A DNA stretch of 64,000 bases from contig JABLUY010000002.1 in the NCBI GenBank assembly GCA_013306675.1, forward strand, positions 62,001-126,000, read 5' to 3'. The stretch comes from Thraustochytrium sp. TN22 (taxonomy: Eukaryota > Sar > Bigyra > Thraustochytrida > Thraustochytriidae). The position numbers and the translations under genes are program-made. Shown here one piece after another: positions 5,438 through 64,000 of this stretch (within the stretch, counting starts at the first letter, position 1; each line of letters begins with the position of its first letter). The notes under the pieces are model-generated. The model was not told the origin of the DNA and searched no databases. It was given only the letters and a program-made list of their open reading frames with translations.

Positions 5438-6269
5438 TCAAGTACGTCCCAGTTGCTGCAGAGCCCGCTCTAGCTCCGCCTGCGCCTCGCGCTGCTCGCG
5501 CCGGAGCGACTCCAACGCATCGCCGTCCGCGCAGTCGCCTGGACGCCCTTCACCAGCCGCAGCCGCCGCCAAGGTCGGCGCACGGGCCTGGCCTTGCAAG
5601 CGCGCGCGAGCCTGCCCGCGCCAGGACTCCAGCTCACGGCCCAGCTCGTTCTCATAGTACATGAGCGAGTGCCGCAGCGCCTCCACGGCCGCTGCGTGCT
5701 CCTCGTCCACCGCCCACAGGATATGCGGCCTCTCACGGCGCTGCTGCGAATAGCTTGGCATGCAAAAGCGTGTGCTCAACACGTGCCACACCTCCCTTGG
5801 CGATTCCGTGTTCGCTAACGCCTCCGCGTCGGCCTCTGTGGCTTCCTCCTTGGCCTCCTCGACATTGACGAAGACGGCCAAGCCGAGCTCGCGCAGAACC
5901 TCGGCCTCCGCAGGCGTGTCAGCACGAACCTTGCGCTGAAGGCTGAGTAACGTGCGCACCACCTGCGCGACCATAACCAAACGCCACTTGCGACGAGATG
6001 GTAGTGGGCCCCGGTCCTGGAATGGGTTGGCCGCTGCGTCTTTGGGCAGCAGTCCGCCCAGGAGACGCTCCGCGTAAGCTTGCAGCTCCAGCACGGGCCG
6101 GGCCACCGCCCCACGAGGCGGCTCGTCGATGCGTGGCTGCACTCGCGCCTGCTCCAGTCGTCCTAGCGCGGCGCGCAAGCACAGCATGGCGAGTCGGAGC
6201 GCGCGCAGCAATCCGCGTATTTTGCGTTGTTGTTGATCTTGTTGTTGTTGCTGCTGCTGCTGCTGCTGC

Positions 6270-6334
<65 letters not shown>

Positions 6335-8536
6335 ATTGCGACGGTCAACTTGCTCCTCGGCTATTGATATAGTCGAGACACCCAAATTGCTGCCGGAGCT
6401 GTGGACTTTCGTCTCCAACTCGCGGACCCGCGCTGCAAGCATCTCCGAGACATGCACCTTATGGTCTAGCAGACTGCCGACAGTCTCGGCCAAATCCACG
6501 ACACTCCCATCAACCTCGTAGCGCGCCAGCTCGCTCTGCGGGCGCACAAGTTGCGACCCGGTGAGGCAGTCGAGCTGCGCGCGCAGCAGTCGCCTCCGGA
6601 TGGAGTGTGTGGACCGCTGCTGCGCATCCCTTTCCTGGCGTAGCTCGCGCTCCAGGGCCAGGACACAGTGATGCGATTCATGAAGCTCGGCGGCCTGACT
6701 CTCGCCCTGCGTGCGCGCCTCACGCAAACGGTCCCTCACCTGCTCAAGCTCCGTTTCCAGCTTGCGGATGCGCAGAGTCTGCTCCTTGGACCGCGCGCTC
6801 GCCTCACGTTCAGCGGCAATAGCTTCCTCGCGCTGGGCACTTCGGCCTTCGGCGCTCCGGCGCGCCTCGACGAGCGCCATCCTTAGCGCAGCAACAGCCT
6901 CAAAAACCGGGGTTGCCAGGGGCGCAAGACAGGCCGCAGTGGTGTCGAGATCCGAGACCGAGTCGCCAGCGCTGCTGCCGTCGCCGACGACACTTCCTGA
7001 AGGCACCGACGCGGTCGTCGCACAGGCCTGTCGTGTCCGCAGCTCGAGCATCTGCAGCACCCTCTCGTAGGCATTTACCTGGTCCGCGAGGCCCGTGCGG
7101 GACCGCTCGACCTCAGTGAGCCGAGCCTCGGATATTCGCGCGGTGGCCTCCGCCGCGCGCGCGGCCTCCGCGGTGGCCCGCAGCGCCTCTCGGGTGCGCT
7201 CAAGGTCTGCGCGGTCCGCGGCGCGGCTGGCGCGCTCCTTGCGCAGGGCATCCAGTTGCGTCTCCGCTTGCAGCGCGCGCGACTCGGCTGCGACCTGCTG
7301 CGTACGCGCCTCGTGCAGGCTGGCCTCTAGCGCGGCCTTGGACGTCTCCGCGTCGCGCGCAACCTTGCGGGCCTCGGCACACACGCGCCGCAGCTCGTCC
7401 GCTTCATCCTCCACCTCCTCGAGCCGTCGTGCACAGAGCTGCTCGCGTGCGGAAGCGCCCTGCAGACGGAGTACCTCGGACTCGGCGCGGTCCTTGGCAG
7501 CCGCCAGCGCGCGGGCCCGCTGCAACGCCTCCTGCAGCTCGCGCTCCACTTCCTCCAGGTGCCGCTGGCGCGCCGCCTGCAGCTCGCCGCGAGCGCTGCG
7601 CGCCTCCTGCAGCGCTGCCTCCGCGGTGTCCGCGGCCTCGCGCGAGCGCCGCGCCTCCTTTCCAAGGCGGGCGGCCTCGGCGCGGAGCTCTGCTGTCGTC
7701 TCGGCGTGTCGCCGCGCCTCGTCGTTGCGTTCCACTCGCGCGCGCTCTGCTGCCTTGACTGCCACGTCCCGCTCGTGTGCCGTCTTGTGCAGGGCGCGCC
7801 GAGTTTCCTCGAAGCTCTCGTTGGACACGAAGCGGTCCTGGAGCTTGGCTTCCGCCAGCCTGCGGAGCCGCCGCTCCTGCTGCAACTGGCCCTCCAGGTC
7901 CCCCAGCGCTTTGCACAAGGACCGTGCGCCCACCTCCTCCTCCTCCGCAGAGCGTCGCGCCGCGCGCAGCGCGGTCTCGCTCTCTTGCAGCGCTTGCCGC
8001 GCGGCCGCCAGCTCTTGGCGCAGCCCTCGGACTGCATCCTGTGCCCCTCGACCAGAGGTCGAGGTGGATGCCGGCGCCTGAGCCGCCCGCCTTGTCGCGC
8101 TCGTGGACGCGCTCGCGGCGCAGCGCCCGCTCGACCAGCGTCCGCTCCCGCTCAAGCTCAAGGGTGTCCCTGCCAGCCGCCGCACGTCCTCGAGCAGGTC
8201 CCTCGTCACGTCCTCTACAAGAAGCACGTCGTCCTCGTCCTCGTCCTCGTCCTGGGCGCCGCTGCTGCGCAGGCCCAGCGACCACCCGCCCGGGCTCGCT
8301 TCGCGCGCGGTCGTGCCGGCGTCGTTGCAGCTGCTGCCTCCACGCGTCGCGCGCTCCCGCACCGCCGCCGGTGGCGTGAACCATCCATCCCGCGACAGAG
8401 CGCCGCCTACTTGAGGCCGGCCGTCCGCGTCACCGTCGCCTTGAGCGGCATTCAGGCCGCTGCGCGCGGACGCGGGCCGCCGTGGCGCGCCTGCGGCCGC
8501 CGCGCCGCCGCCCGCCGCCCAGGCGTCGCTCGACAT
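5438..8536 (-). CDS. Large coiled-coil protein with polyglutamine tract
   Basis: The first in-frame ATG is at 8536 and gives 1032 residues. After a low-complexity N-terminus of about 150 residues, the protein is almost continuous coiled coil. It is rich in Glu, Arg, Ala and Leu in heptads to about residue 730. A polyQ tract of roughly 30 residues follows (about 734-768). A more globular part comes next, containing a short basic-hydrophobic helix (R-R-K-W-R-L-V-M-V-A-Q-V-V, about 848-870). The C-terminus is again a charged helix. The layout resembles centrosomal or Golgi scaffold proteins. The basic-hydrophobic helix faintly recalls the PACT centrosome-targeting motif, but the match is weak and it is not at the extreme C-terminus. 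I do not recognise the family. Confidence 0.7.
6241..6334. repeat. CTG/CAG trinucleotide repeat (coding polyQ)
   Basis: A run of CTG on the plus strand, with a few GTT and one CCG interruption, that reads as CAG on the minus strand and encodes polyglutamine in the coiled-coil protein. It is the longest trinucleotide tract in the window and likely to vary in length between strains. Confidence 0.95.
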
Positions 8537-56393: not shown

Positions 56394-58415
56394 TCACCGT
56401 GCGGCGCTGTCGTCCTGGAGCGCGTCAATGAGCATGAAGCGGTCCTGCGAAGTGAAGGATGTGGCGGACATTTGCTGGTGGCGCGAGAGGTGGCCGCTGG
56501 AGCCGCGCATGGGCGCGTGCGGGTCGTGCTCAATGTGCTGCGGGTGGTGAAAGGTGGGCTGCTCTTGCTTGAGGACCGCCGGGACCTCGCTGCCGGCCTC
56601 GGCGAAGACATGGCGGAAAGAACCCGGGTTGGAGGCCGGCGCGTCGTCGTGCGCGCTGAGCTCGAGGCCGAGCGAGTCCAGAAAGAGCGCCGGGTCGTCC
56701 TCGCCAAGGCCGGAGTCGGCGTGCGGCTCGTGCGTGTCAAAGGCCGGCGTCGCCTGCTGGTGCTGGTGCTGGTGGAGATGGGCTTCATGTGGAGTCGCGG
56801 CCGGGGCAAACTGGGTTTCGGCCGAACGTGCGGTCTGCTGATAGTGCTGCTGCTGCTGCTGCTGCTCCTGCTGCTGCTGCTGAAGCTGGGACTCCTGCTG
56901 CGGCGGGATGTAGGGCGGGTCAACCTCGTACTGCCTCACCTCGTGGTGCGTATGGAACATCTCGTACTTGACGGGACCGGCGGCGGGAGCCTTGGTGTAG
57001 GCCGCGTCCGGGGAATGTGCTGCCTCGTTGCCGGTGCTAAAGGAGTGCTGCCGTGACCAGTCGGCCGCGCCGGCCTCCGGGTAGGCCATGTGCATGGCGG
57101 CGTCCTCGTCCGCAACGGAGGGCGGCGTACCCATGACCGTGAGGTCCGTCATGTCCGCGTAGGCGGCCTGCGCGTCGTGATACGGCTCAAAGCCGGGCTC
57201 GAAGCCGGGCGGCTGCGCATGCAGGTGCGGCTCCGTCGCCGCCGCCGCCGCCGCGTCCACGTTGTCTGGGAAGAGCGGAATGCCGAGAGCGTCCGGCCCA
57301 ACCGGCGGCTGCTGCACAATGCCCCCCGGGGCGAGCGGCGCGAGCACGTCGCTGAGCGAGACGGAGGCGCGCATGGCATGGTGCATGGGGTGGGTGGGGT
57401 GGACAGCCGTCTGCAGGTGCGGCGGCAGAGAGTAGACATAGCGCGGGTCGGAGGCGACCGTCTCCTCGAGGCGCGGGTACTCGCCTGCAAGCTGCTTCCA
57501 GCGCTGGCGTACGGCGTTCTTTGACCGGCCCGGCAGCTGGCTGGCGATGGCGACCCAGCGGTTGTTGGCGGTGGCCTTGGCGTCAATGATGACGCGGTCC
57601 TCGGCTGCACTCCACTGCTTCTGCTGCGCGCGCAGCAGCGACTTGAAGCGAGTCTTGACGGCGTTCTCGGTGCGGCCGTTCATCTGGCCCGAGATCTCGG
57701 CCCACTTGTTGCCGAGCTGCGCCTGCAGGTCCATGAGCTGGTTGTCCTCCTCGGCGGTCCACGGCTCGCGGTTGATGCTCGGGTCCAGGTTCAAACTCCA
57801 GCGTTCACGGCACTGCTTGGCAGTACGCCCAGGGATGAACTTGGCCACGGCCACCCAGGAGGTGTCCCCAGTGGGCGAGACCAGGCTGCGCAGCTTGTCG
57901 TCTTCCTCCTGTGTCCAGTGGCCCTTGACCAAGCCGGGCTGCAGCACCTTCTTCCACCGCTGCAGGCACTGCAGGTGGCTCTTCTCCGGCACGCGTTCCG
58001 CAATGGCCTTCCAGTTCCTCCCGCCGAACTCCTCCACGGCCTTGCGCAGCAGCTCGTCCTCCTCCGGCGACCACTTCTTGCTCGGGTAAGGCGGCGTCGA
58101 CTCATGCACCGACGCCTTCTCGCGCGATGTGGCGTGCATGCGGTCGCCCAGCTCCGGCTGCGCCTTGCGCACGGGCTGCTTCAGGTTGAGCTGAAAGCCG
58201 CCGCCCGCGGCCTTGCCGCTCTTGCGCCCGCTGCGCGCGCCAGCGTCCTCCCGCCCGCCCACGCTCAGCCCTGCGAACTGCGCCGCCAGCGCCTCGCCAT
58301 CCTTGCCGCCGCTCCCGGCCGTCGACTCCAGGAACGCCTTCTTGCCCTCCTGCGACAGCTTGTCCTTGTCGGCCTTGCGCCGCGCCACCTTGCGCGCCGA
58401 GCTGTTGTTGCCCAT
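56394..58415 (-). CDS. 3R-MYB-type transcription factor with a fourth MYB repeat and myristoylation-type N-terminus
   Basis: 673 residues if translation starts at ATG 58415, the first Met followed by orderly sequence. R1 (about 115-158), R2 (166-212) and R3 (219-262) have the canonical spaced Trp pattern of 3R-MYBs, with R-W-K-K-V-L closing R1 and C-R-E-R-W closing R2. Directly after R3 a fourth unit (about 267-312, Q-W-S-A-A-E-D ... R-W-V-A-I-A ... A-V-R-Q-R-W) repeats the fold. 3R-MYBs bind MSA-type promoter elements and control G2/M genes in plants, protists and animals. The C-terminal half is disordered with a polyQ tract. The N-terminus M-G-N-N-S-S fits the N-myristoylation consensus. 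Upstream frame is open but low-complexity, so the start is likely rather than certain. Confidence 0.88.
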   Translation of the reverse strand: MGNNSSARKVARRKADKDKLSQEGKKAFLESTAGSGGKDGEALAAQFAGLSVGGREDAGARSGRKSGKAAGGGFQLNLKQPVRKAQPELGDRMHATSREKASVHESTPPYPSKKWSPEEDELLRKAVEEFGGRNWKAIAERVPEKSHLQCLQRWKKVLQPGLVKGHWTQEEDDKLRSLVSPTGDTSWVAVAKFIPGRTAKQCRERWSLNLDPSINREPWTAEEDNQLMDLQAQLGNKWAEISGQMNGRTENAVKTRFKSLLRAQQKQWSAAEDRVIIDAKATANNRWVAIASQLPGRSKNAVRQRWKQLAGEYPRLEETVASDPRYVYSLPPHLQTAVHPTHPMHHAMRASVSLSDVLAPLAPGGIVQQPPVGPDALGIPLFPDNVDAAAAAATEPHLHAQPPGFEPGFEPYHDAQAAYADMTDLTVMGTPPSVADEDAAMHMAYPEAGAADWSRQHSFSTGNEAAHSPDAAYTKAPAAGPVKYEMFHTHHEVRQYEVDPPYIPPQQESQLQQQQQEQQQQQQHYQQTARSAETQFAPAATPHEAHLHQHQHQQATPAFDTHEPHADSGLGEDDPALFLDSLGLELSAHDDAPASNPGSFRHVFAEAGSEVPAVLKQEQPTFHHPQHIEHDPHAPMRGSSGHLSRHQQMSATSFTSQDRFMLIDALQDDSAAR

Positions 58416-58454
58416 GTCTGACTGCGCCACGACACGACACGCCACGAGCCGGCT

Positions 58455-58530
58455 CGCGAGGCGACGCGAGGCGAGGCGAGGCGACGCGACGCGAGGCGAG
58501 GCGAGGCGACGCGAGGCGATGCGAGGCGAG
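58455..58530. repeat. GCGAGGCGACGC-type repeats at MYB start
   Basis: Degenerate 5- to 10-bp units of GAGGC and GACGC immediately upstream of the MYB ATG. They resemble the array upstream of the 48992 gene. Confidence 0.75.
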
Positions 58531-59336
58531 GCGCGCTCAGACGCCGACCCGCCGCAGCCTGCGCCGCTGCCGCGCCGGCCGCCCGCCACGCTTAACGCGC
58601 GCGCGCGGGATGGACGCGATGGACGGAGCCCTGCGGCTGTCGCGGGATGCAGAACTGCGCGCTCGCCGCACCTGCGCGGGTCCGCGCGGGCGGCCCAGCC
58701 GACGAGGGACGGCGCGCGCGGGGGAGCGGGGGGGGGTGGCGAGCTGCTGCGCTCGCTCGCTCGGCGCCGCGCCGGCCGCGACCGCTCCCTGGCTAGCCGC
58801 TCGGGGTCTGCGGCCGTCGTACAACTCCACGCGGGCGCCGGGCGCCGCCGCGCGCTGGGCCGAGCTCCCGGGTCCGGTGCCGCCGCCGCCATTTTCCAAG
58901 CCCTGTGCAGGCCGCAGCGGACCCCGCGTCGCCAAATCGCATCGGCCGAAAAGAGACCTTCAAATCTGCGGAACAGGAGAACGTTGCGAACGTTCAGGGC
59001 GCTGTTCGCCGCGGCCGATCCGAAGTTCCACTTCGAGTTCCAGCGGGTTGAGGACGAGCACGTCGACGATGGGAAGAACCGGACTCGTACGAGCAAGGGG
59101 CAGCAAGGGCGGGTCCGAGAGAGAGAGGGAGAGATGCCCGACCGCGGCGCGGGCGGCTGCGCGCAGCCGAGCTGGGCTGAGCTGAGCTGGACTGGACTGC
59201 CTGACTGACTGACCGTGAGCTCACGTAGCCTGGAAATCGGCTGGCGGACACCTACCTGGCCGGCCGACCAGCTGCCACTGACTCGAAGACGAGGCCGGCG
59301 ACCAAGGCGCTGCCCGGATGGGCATGAGATTTTTGG

Positions 59337-59630
59337 TGTCGCGTTGCTCATGCTGGAACCATACCACTGCAGCTGCTGTGCCGCGGGATGCCGCTGGACT
59401 GGCCGTTGTTGACTCGCTTGCACGCAGCACTCTGGCCAGATCTGATCTACTGGGTTGCGAGATCGAATTGGGTTCGGGCTTGTTCGAGTCATCAAGCTGG
59501 GACTTTACAAGTTACAGCGGACACGCATCCTGGTACGCTGACATTTGGCTGGCTCGGCTGGCTCGGCTTGACTCAGCCGGCTCGGCTGGCTCGGCTGGTT
59601 CGGCTGGCTCGGCTGGCTCGCGGCGCCTCA
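59337..59630. repeat. Tandem segmental duplication, copy A (294 bp)
   Basis: First copy of a direct tandem duplication. It starts TGTCGCGTTGCTCATGCTGG and ends with an array of GGCTGGCTCG units. It lies beside copy B without spacer. Most of the body is identical, with a few indels, which points to a recent event. Confidence 0.9.
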
Positions 59631-59930
59631 TGTCGCGTTGCTCATGCTGGCAGCTGGAACCGTTCCACTGCAGCCGCTGGCCGCTGGATGCCGCTGGGCG
59701 CCGCTGGACTGGCCGTTGTTGACTCGCTTGCACGCAGCACACTGGCCAGATCACTGGGTTGTGAGATCGAATTGGGTTCGGGCTTGTTCGAGTCATCAAG
59801 CTGGGACTTTACAAGTTACAGCGGACACGCATCCTACGTCGACATTTGGCTGGCTCGGCTAGCTCGGCTTGACTCAGCCGGCTCGGCTGGCTCGGCTGGC
59901 TCGGCTGGCTCGGCTGGCTCGCGGCACCTC
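59631..59930. repeat. Tandem segmental duplication, copy B (about 300 bp)
   Basis: Second copy, with a small number of substitutions and short indels relative to copy A and a slightly different number of GGCTGGCTCG units at its end. No open frame, terminal inverted repeats or target-site duplications, so it does not look like a transposon. Confidence 0.9.
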
Positions 59931-60576: not shown

Positions 60577-61243
60577 ATGGCGAGCCGCGCGGGAGGCGGC
60601 GGTGGCGGCGGCGGCGGCGCGGGCGCAGGCACGGGCGCAGGCATGGCGGAGCGCGACATCGCGCTCTGGCTGCGACTGGCCTGGGTGTGCGAGCCGGCCT
60701 GGCGGTCTGCCGATGAGCTGCCGCTAGGTCTGACGGAGACCTCGAGCGGGGCGCTGCGCGTGGAGTCCGTGGGAGAGGAGGCGCGACGACGTCGCTGGGC
60801 GGTGCGCCCGGGTGACGTCTTGTGCAGCGCGCACGGCTTCGAGAGCTTGACTAGAGTGGCCATGTTGAATGGGGGACTCCAGGTGAGCGCCGCAGGCACG
60901 TACGCGGTGCGGCTCAAGCAGGAGGTCGTCTACGACCGTGCGACGCTGCTCCGGGCGAATGCGATCGCGGTCGCGCCCCACGTTGCGGGCGGGCCGGAGA
61001 GGTACCACTGGAACCTGGAGATGGTCAAGGGCATCTGCGGACTTCCACCCGGCGCGTCTTCCGAGGTGGTGGCGGTCAATGGGCTGTGCCTGAAGCGCGG
61101 TCTCATGGAGCTCAAGGTGGCCATCGGGGATTGGCTCGCGGCCTCGGACGGGCCCTTTCGGCTTGACATCGAGTGCACGTCGCGCCCCAACGAGCTGGAA
61201 CGGTTGCCAGCTACCGCCATTGCCCCCGCCTCCGCAGTGCCCT

Positions 61244-61274
<31 letters not shown>

Positions 61275-64000
61275 CCCAAAGCGTGCCTCGCCCAGCGCCG
61301 TGGACCTGACCCCAAGCAAGCGTGCGGCACGCGCGGAACGCAAGGAACTGGATGGCCTGGAGAATGACGATTTTGGCGACGGCGTCGACCTGATGGTAGC
61401 GACGCAGACCATCACCATGATCTGCCCGGTGAGCCTGTGCAAGCTTCGCAATCCGGCGCGAGGGCCGGCGTGCACGCACGCGAGCGCTGTGGAGCTCGAG
61501 TTTTGCAAGGTGGGCCGCCCCTGCCCCATCTGCGGCAAGCCGATTACCCACGCGATGATTGACCCTAACTTTCAGCTAGCAATCCACACTGCTCCGGCGA
61601 GCTGCGAGCGGCTCAATGTCGTGCCACATGGACCCGGCGGGAGACCGTTCACCTTCACGCACGTGCTTCCGGCCCCGGTCAATAACAAAGTGATCTCCAT
61701 CCTCGACGAGGACAACCCGGGGCTCGCGAACGGGGCGCCGACGCCCGCGCCGAAGCCCTTCATCAAGGCCGAACCAGTGGGCGTCCCGGCGGCTGCCACG
61801 GCAGCGCATGTTCTGGCCCAGCGCGGCGGAGCGATCGGAGCATTGGATCACGGCGGCGCCGTGCCCACGCAAGCTGGTGCTGGTGCTGGTGCTGCGAACC
61901 CAATCGTTGAAGTGCAAAGCGTGCGTGAGGCGATTCGCCACTTCGGTGGCGAGCAAGAGTCTTCCTTCCCGGACCGGCTCTCCAAGGTGCTGTCGCAGCT
62001 GTCGCTGCAGCAGGCAAGGCTCGTAGCGCAGCGATCCCAGATGTCGCTCGTGGAGCACGCGCGCTGGGGGCCGTGCGCGATGCGCCCGGACAAGGCGAAG
62101 AAGCGACTCATAGTGGGCGGCGTCAAGGTGCACTTCCCGCACCGCAAACTGCTCGGGCCGCAGGTACGGCTTGTCGTGGAGATGCTGTCTGCCTTCAAAG
62201 AGCAAAAGCACGCTCTGGTGGAGTCGCCCACCGGCACGGGCAAGACGGCCGCCCTGGTGTGCGCGGCGCTCGCGTGGCAACGCCACCACGACGAGCTCAA
62301 GTGGGCGGACCTGGGCGGGAAGCAGCGTACCATCTTCTTCCTGACGCGAACGCATTCCCAGGTTGCGCAAATCGTCTCCGCCATGCGCGACATGCCATAT
62401 CGACCGGTGATCGACTCGCTCGGGAGCCGCCAGAGCTTGTGCAACAACGAGGAGTTGCGCGCGCAGACCAAGGGCTCGCGCGAGGCGCTCAACGTACGGT
62501 GCCAGCTGGCCGTGCAGAAGGGCTCTTGCAAACGCTACAAGAGCATGCTGAACGAGTCCTTTGTGAGCCGTGTGCGCGACCTGGCGCGGCCCATGCCGGC
62601 GGCAAACCTGGGCCAGCCGCAGGAGCGCGACGGTCTCTATGACATCGAGGACTTGGTCCGTGCAAGCGAGGACGGCGCCGTGAGCGGGTGCGCCTTCTTC
62701 ACGTCCAAGTCGCTGCAGAACTCGGCGCAGTTCATCGTCTGCCCGTACAACTATGTCGTGGACCCAACGATCCGCGAGATGCTGGTTCCGGAGAGCCAGG
62801 CTGGCACGCCCATCTTCATCTTTGACGAGGGCCACAACCTCGAGTCCACCTGCATGGAAACCGGCTCCTGCTCGCTGACTCTGCCCAACGTGCTGGAGGT
62901 GGTCCGCGACCTCTGCGTGCTGGCCTCTTTCACGAACTGGGTCGTTGAGCCGGGCCCCGACGGATGCACCATGGCAAGCCTCGTCCGGGATATCATCCCG
63001 ATCTTCGATAGCCTGGCGCAGTTTATGCTAGCGCAGCGCGCCGCCTGGGTTGCCTCGCCGCAAAGCCGCCAGGTCTCCAGGTACGAGTCGCGCTTCGAGG
63101 TCTACCGTCGCGGCGGCATGACAGACGACGGCAAGTCCGCCGTGGCAGCCACTTTCCTGTCCCAGTTGGGTCTCGAGGCTGACGCGCTCAAATTGGCTGC
63201 CGAAAGGTTGGTACAAGTCCTGCGCGCGATGACCGAGTCGAGCACGGAGGAGGGCGAGGAGGACGAGGAGGGCGGGGCGGAGGGCGAGGACCCCTTCGGC
63301 CTGCACGGCCGGCGCGAGTTCCAGCGCGGCGCTGGCCGCCGCGGCGACCGCCCGCCCACCTACCTACGGTCGCTCTCGCAAACCGCCTCCCAGGGCCTGC
63401 TAGTCCTTGGCCTCCTCAGCAAGACACCGGCCGACTACTACGTGGTGCTCTCCGCGGAGCGCCTGACCGAGCCCAAGGAGGACATCACGCACGGCGAGCA
63501 CGACTTCGGCTACCGCTTCCCCTTTCGGCAGTGCTCCATGGGCCACGGATCGTACCTTGGGAGGGGCAACTACAGGCTCTCCTCGTGGTCGATGGACCTG
63601 CAGCTGGTGCTCATGAACCCAGGGGTCATCTTCGATCTCTTCTCCTCGATTGCGCACTCCGTCGTGGTGGCCTCGGGGACGCTCTTCCCCATGAGTCCGG
63701 GAGAGTTCGGCAAGGACTTCACGCGGCGCCTACGCGGCCAGGGCGTGGCACTTGACCATGTCATCGACCAGAAACGCCAGCTGTACATGGCGGTGGTCGA
63801 AAGCAGCCCATCGGGCGAGTCGCTCAACAGCACATACAAGGCGCGTAAGGAGCGGCGGAAGTTTGCCTACGAGCAGGCGCTGATCGATTCCATCCGGAGT
63901 ATCCTGCGCGCCATCACCGTTCCGGGCGGCAGCCTGGTCTTCCTGACCAGCTACAAGCAGCTAGCCGAGGTGCAGAGCTATCTAGACAGCTCCCGCATCG
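60577..64000 (+). CDS. FANCJ/BRIP1-type iron-sulfur DNA helicase fused to a PIAS-like SP-RING (3' end outside window)
   Basis: ATG 60577 is the first in frame after a TGA at 60481; ATG 60643 is an alternative. 1141 residues lie in the window. Order: a Gly-rich start; a PDZ-like segment (about 48-112, with R-P-G-D-V-L); and an SP-RING (about 279-330). The SP-RING begins C-P-V-S-L at 283 and has zinc ligands C299, H301, C316 and C319, then M-I-D-P-N-F. A SUMO-interaction-like motif V-I-S-I-L-D-E-D (372-379) and the SUMO acceptor consensus I-K-A-E (Lys397) follow. The XPD-family helicase comes next: G-G-V-K-V-H-F-P, Walker A Lys556 in S-P-T-G-T-G-K-T, iron-sulfur cysteines C622, C642, C651 and C705, and DEGH at 750-753. 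Motif S-G-T-L-F-P-M closes the visible part. The helicase remains open at the window end. FANCJ helicases unwind interstrand-crosslink and G-quadruplex DNA; SP-RINGs are SUMO E3 ligases. Confidence 0.92.
61405..61570 (+). other. SP-RING (MIZ-type) zinc finger segment in the helicase protein
   Basis: Residues about 277-331 follow the PIAS/Siz SP-RING closely. They run from T-M-I-C-P-V-S-L through P-A-R-G-P-A-C-T-H and then C-P-I-C-G-K to M-I-D-P-N-F-Q. All four zinc-ligand positions of the SP-RING (Cys, His, Cys, Cys) are kept. A RING or U-box is less likely because the first C-x2-C pair of a RING is absent. Confidence 0.85.

Follow-up and report, generated by a model that had tools for sequence, protein, structure and literature searches.

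The finger-helicase gene and its reading frame

At the downstream end of the window (the whole 64,000-nucleotide stretch of DNA analysed here, C222:62001-126000), a single open frame of 1418 codons runs on the forward strand from an ATG at 60577 to a stop 833 bases beyond the window. Translation of positions 60577-63999 gave 1141 residues with zero stops, and the frame continues in the overlapping stretch L002, which is identical to the window across the 5000 bases that the two share. The features of this predicted gene, all on the forward strand and given in window coordinates, are as follows:

60577..64000, + strand, the finger-helicase gene: residues 1-1141 lie in the window and the rest outside it, with the stop at L002:5831-5833 (C222:126833), for 1418 aa in total
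60712..60921, + strand, the PDZ-like module of a preliminary description (about residues 46-115); unsupported
61405..61611, + strand, SP-RING-like zinc finger, residues 277-345, with candidate ligands C299 (61471-61473), H301 (61477-61479), C316 (61522-61524) and C319 (61531-61533)
61690..61713, + strand, SIM-like motif VISILDED, residues 372-379 (sequence match)
61762..61776, + strand, psi-K-x-E-P SUMO-site motif IKAEP, at residue 396, with Lys397 (sequence match)
61777..62091, + strand, residues 401-505, which link the finger to the helicase; stop-free, with a weak codon signal in 61744-61923
62104..64000, + strand, XPD/FANCJ-group helicase, from about residue 510 to about residue 1375, its end lying outside the window (profile and PDB matches, motifs)
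62233..62247, + strand, Walker A motif GTGKT, residues 553-557 (motif alignment)
62440..62691, + strand, iron-sulfur cluster region with cysteines 622, 642, 651 and 705 (alignment)
62824..62835, + strand, motif II as DEGH, residues 750-753; this motif is DEAH in all four paralogues in the genome

Coding signal along the locus was measured with a codon score for which seven frames from the same genome, comprising 5127 codons, were the training set. Upstream of the ATG the score of the gene frame is negative; from 60574 onward, it is the highest of all six frames in 36 of 37 scoring windows and exceeds zero in 34 of them. The three low-scoring windows fall within two stretches of low complexity, at 61114-61383 and 61744-61923 (residues ~180-270 and ~390-450), neither of which contains a stop. 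Within 61744-61923, a minus-strand frame outscores the gene frame. The preliminary description, made from the letters of this DNA, had proposed one continuous frame, and this is borne out by the uninterrupted course from the ATG through the end of the window to the stop and by the coding signal that flanks the linker. We take the finger and the helicase to be parts of one protein, as predicted from the DNA.

Repeats were observed at the 3' end of the gene and upstream of it. Just outside the window, a 415-bp tandem duplication with 95.7% identity (L002:5541-5954 and 5954-6356) copies the terminal part of the helicase gene together with some of the sequence that follows motif VI. Upstream of the gene, a repeat in direct orientation, about 251 bp long and with 92.4% identity, lies at 59379-59629 and 59689-59930 of the window (L002 379-629 and 689-930). 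A minus-strand open frame at 56394-59495 of the window appears to encode several Myb-like repeats (W-x-x-EED), which were recognised by eye in its translation.

The helicase domain and its paralogues

The two Pfam models with which the preliminary description proposed to check the helicase, Helicase_C_2 (145.7 bits) and DEAD_2 (98.6 bits), both match the full protein, as does TIGR00604 (rad3; 278 bits, cut-off 246.95), and by these profiles the helicase match is far above chance. In addition to the motifs given above, alignment places TRTHSQ at residue 590, ASGTL at 1032, FLTSY at 1122, RGRMSEG at 1243 and QALGRVIR at 1320. The hallmarks by which an XPD-family iron-sulfur helicase is recognised (DEAD_2, Helicase_C_2, Walker A, motif II, here in the form DEGH, motif VI and the four cluster cysteines) were thus all found, and the earlier assignment of a full XPD/FANCJ helicase holds. 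Near Walker A the paralogue alignment is poor for three of the paralogues, and the FANCJ match in that region rests on a separate alignment.

When the helicase part was compared to solved structures in the PDB, human FANCJ was the first match (203.7 bits); RAD3 reached 97.3 bits and CHL1 90.9 bits, and RTEL1 was absent from the PDB matches. A DEAD_2 search of the whole genome scored five places: the window helicase and four others, L021, L022, L023 and L024. L022 contains the HBB domain of XPD, and L023 we name CHL1-like from its sequence. L024 matches the RTEL1 ARCH domain at 25.3 bits, slightly below the cut-off of 27, and FANCJ at 344.2 bits, while L021 matches FANCJ at 361.7 bits. In a comparison of five long branches from one genome, the window helicase groups with L021 (support 100/98, or 100/99 when L023 is omitted), and forcing it to pair with the RTEL1-like, CHL1-like or XPD protein on these same five branches gave p values of 0.024, 0.047 and 0.002, respectively. 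An insertion between motifs I and Ia spans about 170 residues in both human FANCJ and L021, and fewer than 10 in the window helicase.

That the window helicase is simply the genome's own FANCJ was rejected because L021 is the better FANCJ match. Most likely, judging from these matches, the window helicase is a divergent fifth paralogue of the FANCJ group that stands beside L021.

The zinc finger and its flanking motifs

Starting at residue 283, the finger reads CPVSLCKLRNPARGPACTHASAVELEFCKVGRPCPIC. It has CPVS at 283, CTH at 299 and CPIC at 316, with S286 replacing the second RING cysteine. SP-RINGs keep a single zinc site, formed from CxH and CPxC, and have lost the other RING site; in the finger, likewise, the SP-RING zinc site is complete and the other RING zinc site is missing. 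The pattern CPx[ST]-CxH-CPxC occurred in none of 2000 shuffled copies of the full protein, and none of nine shuffled versions of the finger region matched any Pfam family. By its sequence, the finger is a RING-superfamily domain.

To which branch of the superfamily it belongs was examined with profiles. An 81-residue finger query matched zf-Nse at 19.5 bits (E 0.00086), zf-MIZ at 19.0 bits (E 0.0012) and zf-RING_UBOX at 11.8 bits, a score that no RING or U-box Pfam family exceeds; the first two fall below their curated cut-offs of 27 and 33.5 bits, respectively. Within a query of the full-length protein the scores were 15.4 bits for zf-Nse and 12.0 bits for zf-MIZ, and both models align only their first half to the finger. 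Genome-wide, two candidates were scored with zf-MIZ, a PIAS protein at 56.3 bits and then the finger at 15.7 bits (E 0.585), and with zf-Nse the finger ranks last of 12 places. For comparison, MMS21 of this genome reaches 13.6 bits with zf-MIZ.

Eight RING/U-box loci served as controls; these are eight of the nine non-SP-RING places matched by zf-Nse (the ninth lies on C428) and were thus chosen for matching this model. On zf-Nse, all eight exceed the finger (20.3-28.6 versus 19.5 bits), so this match is non-discriminating and carries little weight. Among the matches listed (the best 25 of 42 for L014 and the best 25 of 36 for L016), zf-MIZ appeared in two of the eight controls, at 8.3 and 8.5 bits, and a RING or U-box family was the top Pfam match in seven. 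The zf-MIZ scores favour an SP-RING over a RING or U-box, though at a level below the Pfam cut-off.

A home-made model built from eight SP-RINGs scored the finger at 24.6 bits, RING2 at 41.6 bits and U-box 12 at 13.9 bits, with two of the eight genomic RING/U-box loci above the finger (29.8 and 26.2 bits). True SP-RINGs that were left out of such models scored 40.5-103.4 bits, compared to 18.5-25.7 bits for the finger on the same models, and no shuffled sequence reached the score of the finger (1972 scored of 2000 made). The home-made model sets the finger apart from shuffles, but not from RINGs. In the PDB, RING2 was the best match to a 133-aa query and U-box 12 the best match to a 76-aa query, with scores similar to or better than those of SP-RINGs; we gave the RING2 match no weight because the genome's true MMS21 likewise matches RING2. 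The finger aligns without gaps to SIZ2 over CPVS...CTH. The Trp that precedes CPxC in PIAS/Siz proteins is absent from it, and its segment from CxH to CPxC is short. An AlphaFold model of residues 255-356 had a mean pLDDT of 45.1, below what is usable for fold comparison.

One further finger in the genome bears on the missing zinc site. The C-terminal RING-like finger (L011:1456-1698, on C430) of a long coiled-coil-like protein, which we take to be perhaps of Bre1 type, has CxH and CPxC, with CPLR replacing CxxC. Its top Pfam match is zf-Nse at 28.6 bits, above the cut-off, and RING families reach up to 24.8 bits. This ligand loss shows that fingers other than SP-RINGs can lack the first zinc site as well. 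Taken together, we regard SP-RING as the best reading of the finger, one that is unproven and that we hold to be probable. The preliminary description had asserted an SP-RING with all of its zinc ligands and had proposed zf-MIZ as a check: the four ligands are indeed all present and zf-MIZ does match, but the profile scores lie below the Pfam cut-offs and part of them fails the controls, leaving the SP-RING itself a probable assignment.

The motifs that follow the finger were compared to shuffled copies of the protein. The proposed SIM, VISILDED, is present, but a SIM with an acidic tail arises in 13% of shuffled copies. The consensus SUMO site proposed at Lys397 is likewise present as IKAEP, but lies near chance, as psi-K-x-E occurs in 52% and psi-K-x-E-P in 3.6% of shuffled copies. 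Both motifs carry little weight. The order previously pointed out, with the SP-RING-like finger followed by the SIM, is seen here and likewise in the PIAS of this genome, a protein with SAP and zf-MIZ matches and the C-terminal end IEILDSDDDE. The PDZ-like module, on the other hand, found no support: neither a PDZ nor any other Pfam domain matched the N-terminal module up to E=10, and the AlphaFold model of residues 22-210 (mean pLDDT 36.2) is too poor for use. A search of the genome for another copy of the N-terminal part returned only itself and one match at E=0.72, and no relatives were found in viral contigs, searched with the N-terminal and helicase parts, or in prokaryote genomes, searched with the N-terminal part.

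A possible SUMO ligase in cis with a helicase

Several components of SUMO and crosslink-repair pathways were identified in the genome. These include the PIAS, an MMS21 match in a 332-aa frame, Peptidase_C48 at 14 places (the best at 133.5 bits), an SprT-like protease (92.2 bits) and, at L031 (C343:69901-70501), a frame with a QQGG site that we name a SUMO-like protein from its translation. The upstream end of L031 resembles the end of another such unit, so this may perhaps be a tandem SUMO gene. Rad60-SLD matched 27 places in the genome, many of them ubiquitin-looking and with arrays at 228-base spacing; two of the four places that were read are presumably ubiquitin with a ribosomal tail. FANCD2 gave no match in the genome search, and the control genomes gave no match either.

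Published work, in the excerpts available, links both activities to the repair of crosslinks. In reconstituted repair, FANCJ meets the crosslinked protein and unfolds the adduct, enabling cleavage by SPRTN, and adducts are SUMOylated by SUMO E1, E2 and PIAS4 and then ubiquitylated by RNF4 (excerpts of PMC12279946). RTEL1 of Arabidopsis functions downstream of SMC5/6 when crosslinks induced by zebularine are repaired, a process in which SUMOylation mediated by SMC5/6 is important (excerpts of PMC13087486).

On balance, we lean toward the explanation that this gene specifies an iron-sulfur DNA helicase of the FANCJ group, an additional and divergent paralogue, in which an N-terminal SP-RING finger and a SIM act as a SUMO ligase. 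The finger would recruit SUMO-charged E2 (Ubc9), the SIM would keep the donor SUMO in place, and the protein would SUMOylate proteins that it encounters during its travel along DNA. The most attractive substrates would be DNA-protein crosslinks and stalled repair proteins; when animal repair is reconstituted, adducts of this kind are unfolded by FANCJ and SUMOylated by a separate SP-RING ligase, PIAS4. This explanation draws on what can be read in the DNA, namely one frame, intact helicase motifs, the set of zinc ligands and the SUMO-like, Peptidase_C48 and SprT-like genes of the genome, and beyond these we infer SP-RING identity, E2 binding, ligase activity, a substrate and self-modification. 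More tentatively, and as a conjecture that we consider plausible but short of likely, a eukaryotic lineage may have duplicated its FANCJ helicase, after which one of the copies became joined to an SP-RING and a SIM, such that one self-contained chain unfolds DNA-protein crosslinks or strips proteins off DNA and also marks them with SUMO, work that animals divide between FANCJ and PIAS4.

Other explanations of the locus differ mainly in what the finger is. It could be the ubiquitin ligase domain of a classical RING or U-box-like type that has degenerated and lost its first zinc site. The FANCJ-group helicase would then carry a ubiquitin E3 in cis, by a logic similar to that of Rad5 and HLTF, which have a RING. 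The best PDB matches, to RING2 and U-box 12, are consistent with this, as are the higher score of RING2 on the SP-RING model and the CPLR of L011, by which such ligand loss does occur in this genome; we nevertheless consider it doubtful, given that the Pfam RING and U-box families stay at or below 11.8 bits for the finger, whereas such a family comes out on top for seven of the eight controls and even L011 reaches 24.8 bits, and that the RING2 match, being common to the true MMS21, is not telling. That the finger is instead an inactive zinc module that holds partners or DNA, giving the helicase an additional arm for docking but not the activity of a ligase, would agree with the weak family scores and the shortened segment between the ligand pairs. 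We judge this quite unlikely, as neither ligand pair is disrupted and the finger resembles the matched SP-RINGs in its CPVS start and its CPIC loop.

It is very improbable that the fusion is only apparent, produced by separate transcripts, an intron or an assembly join. The codon signal does drop in 61744-61923, where another frame is higher, GC-rich DNA gives long chance frames on other strands, and the tandem duplication at the 3' end implies that the locus was rearranged in the past. The linker, however, is free of stops with the identical frame on both sides, the gene frame is the best nearly throughout, and the other low-scoring stretch is of low complexity as well.

If the finger of this candidate SUMO ligase works, the gene would represent a natural fusion in which a single polypeptide both acts as a helicase and marks with SUMO, which would be new. 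No fusion of a helicase to a SUMO-ligase finger was found in the literature searched by titles and abstract openings, in agreement with the earlier statement that no helicase of the XPD/FANCJ/RTEL1 group is known to have a SUMO ligase domain. Two steps of crosslink repair would then be combined in one FANCJ-group helicase with an SP-RING in cis. This would point to shared substrates for unfolding of the FANCJ type and SUMOylation by an SP-RING, which belong to separate proteins in reconstituted crosslink repair as excerpted from PMC12279946, and the order and mutual dependence of both steps would be testable with one purified protein.

Among known systems, human FANCJ/BRIP1 (PDB 9ej9) is the best solved relative, with helicase motifs and iron-sulfur cysteines that align to those of the window protein; it differs in its long motif I-Ia insertion, which the window protein is without, and to our knowledge it has no SP-RING. 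With PIAS/Siz ligases, the window protein shares the zinc site of CxH and CPxC, the SIM-like motif after the finger and a weak zf-MIZ match, but it is without the SAP match found in the genome's PIAS and the Trp before CPxC, has a shorter middle segment and scores far under true members. MMS21/NSE2 resembles it in placing an SP-RING finger in a DNA repair setting, with a similar acidic lead and CP[IV][TS] start; unlike the window finger, it is a separate small subunit of Smc5/6, and the genome has its own. RTEL1 and Rad5/HLTF each join a repair helicase or translocase to a RING-type domain in one chain: the RING of RTEL1 is C-terminal and classical, and Rad5/HLTF is an SNF2 translocase with a ubiquitin RING.
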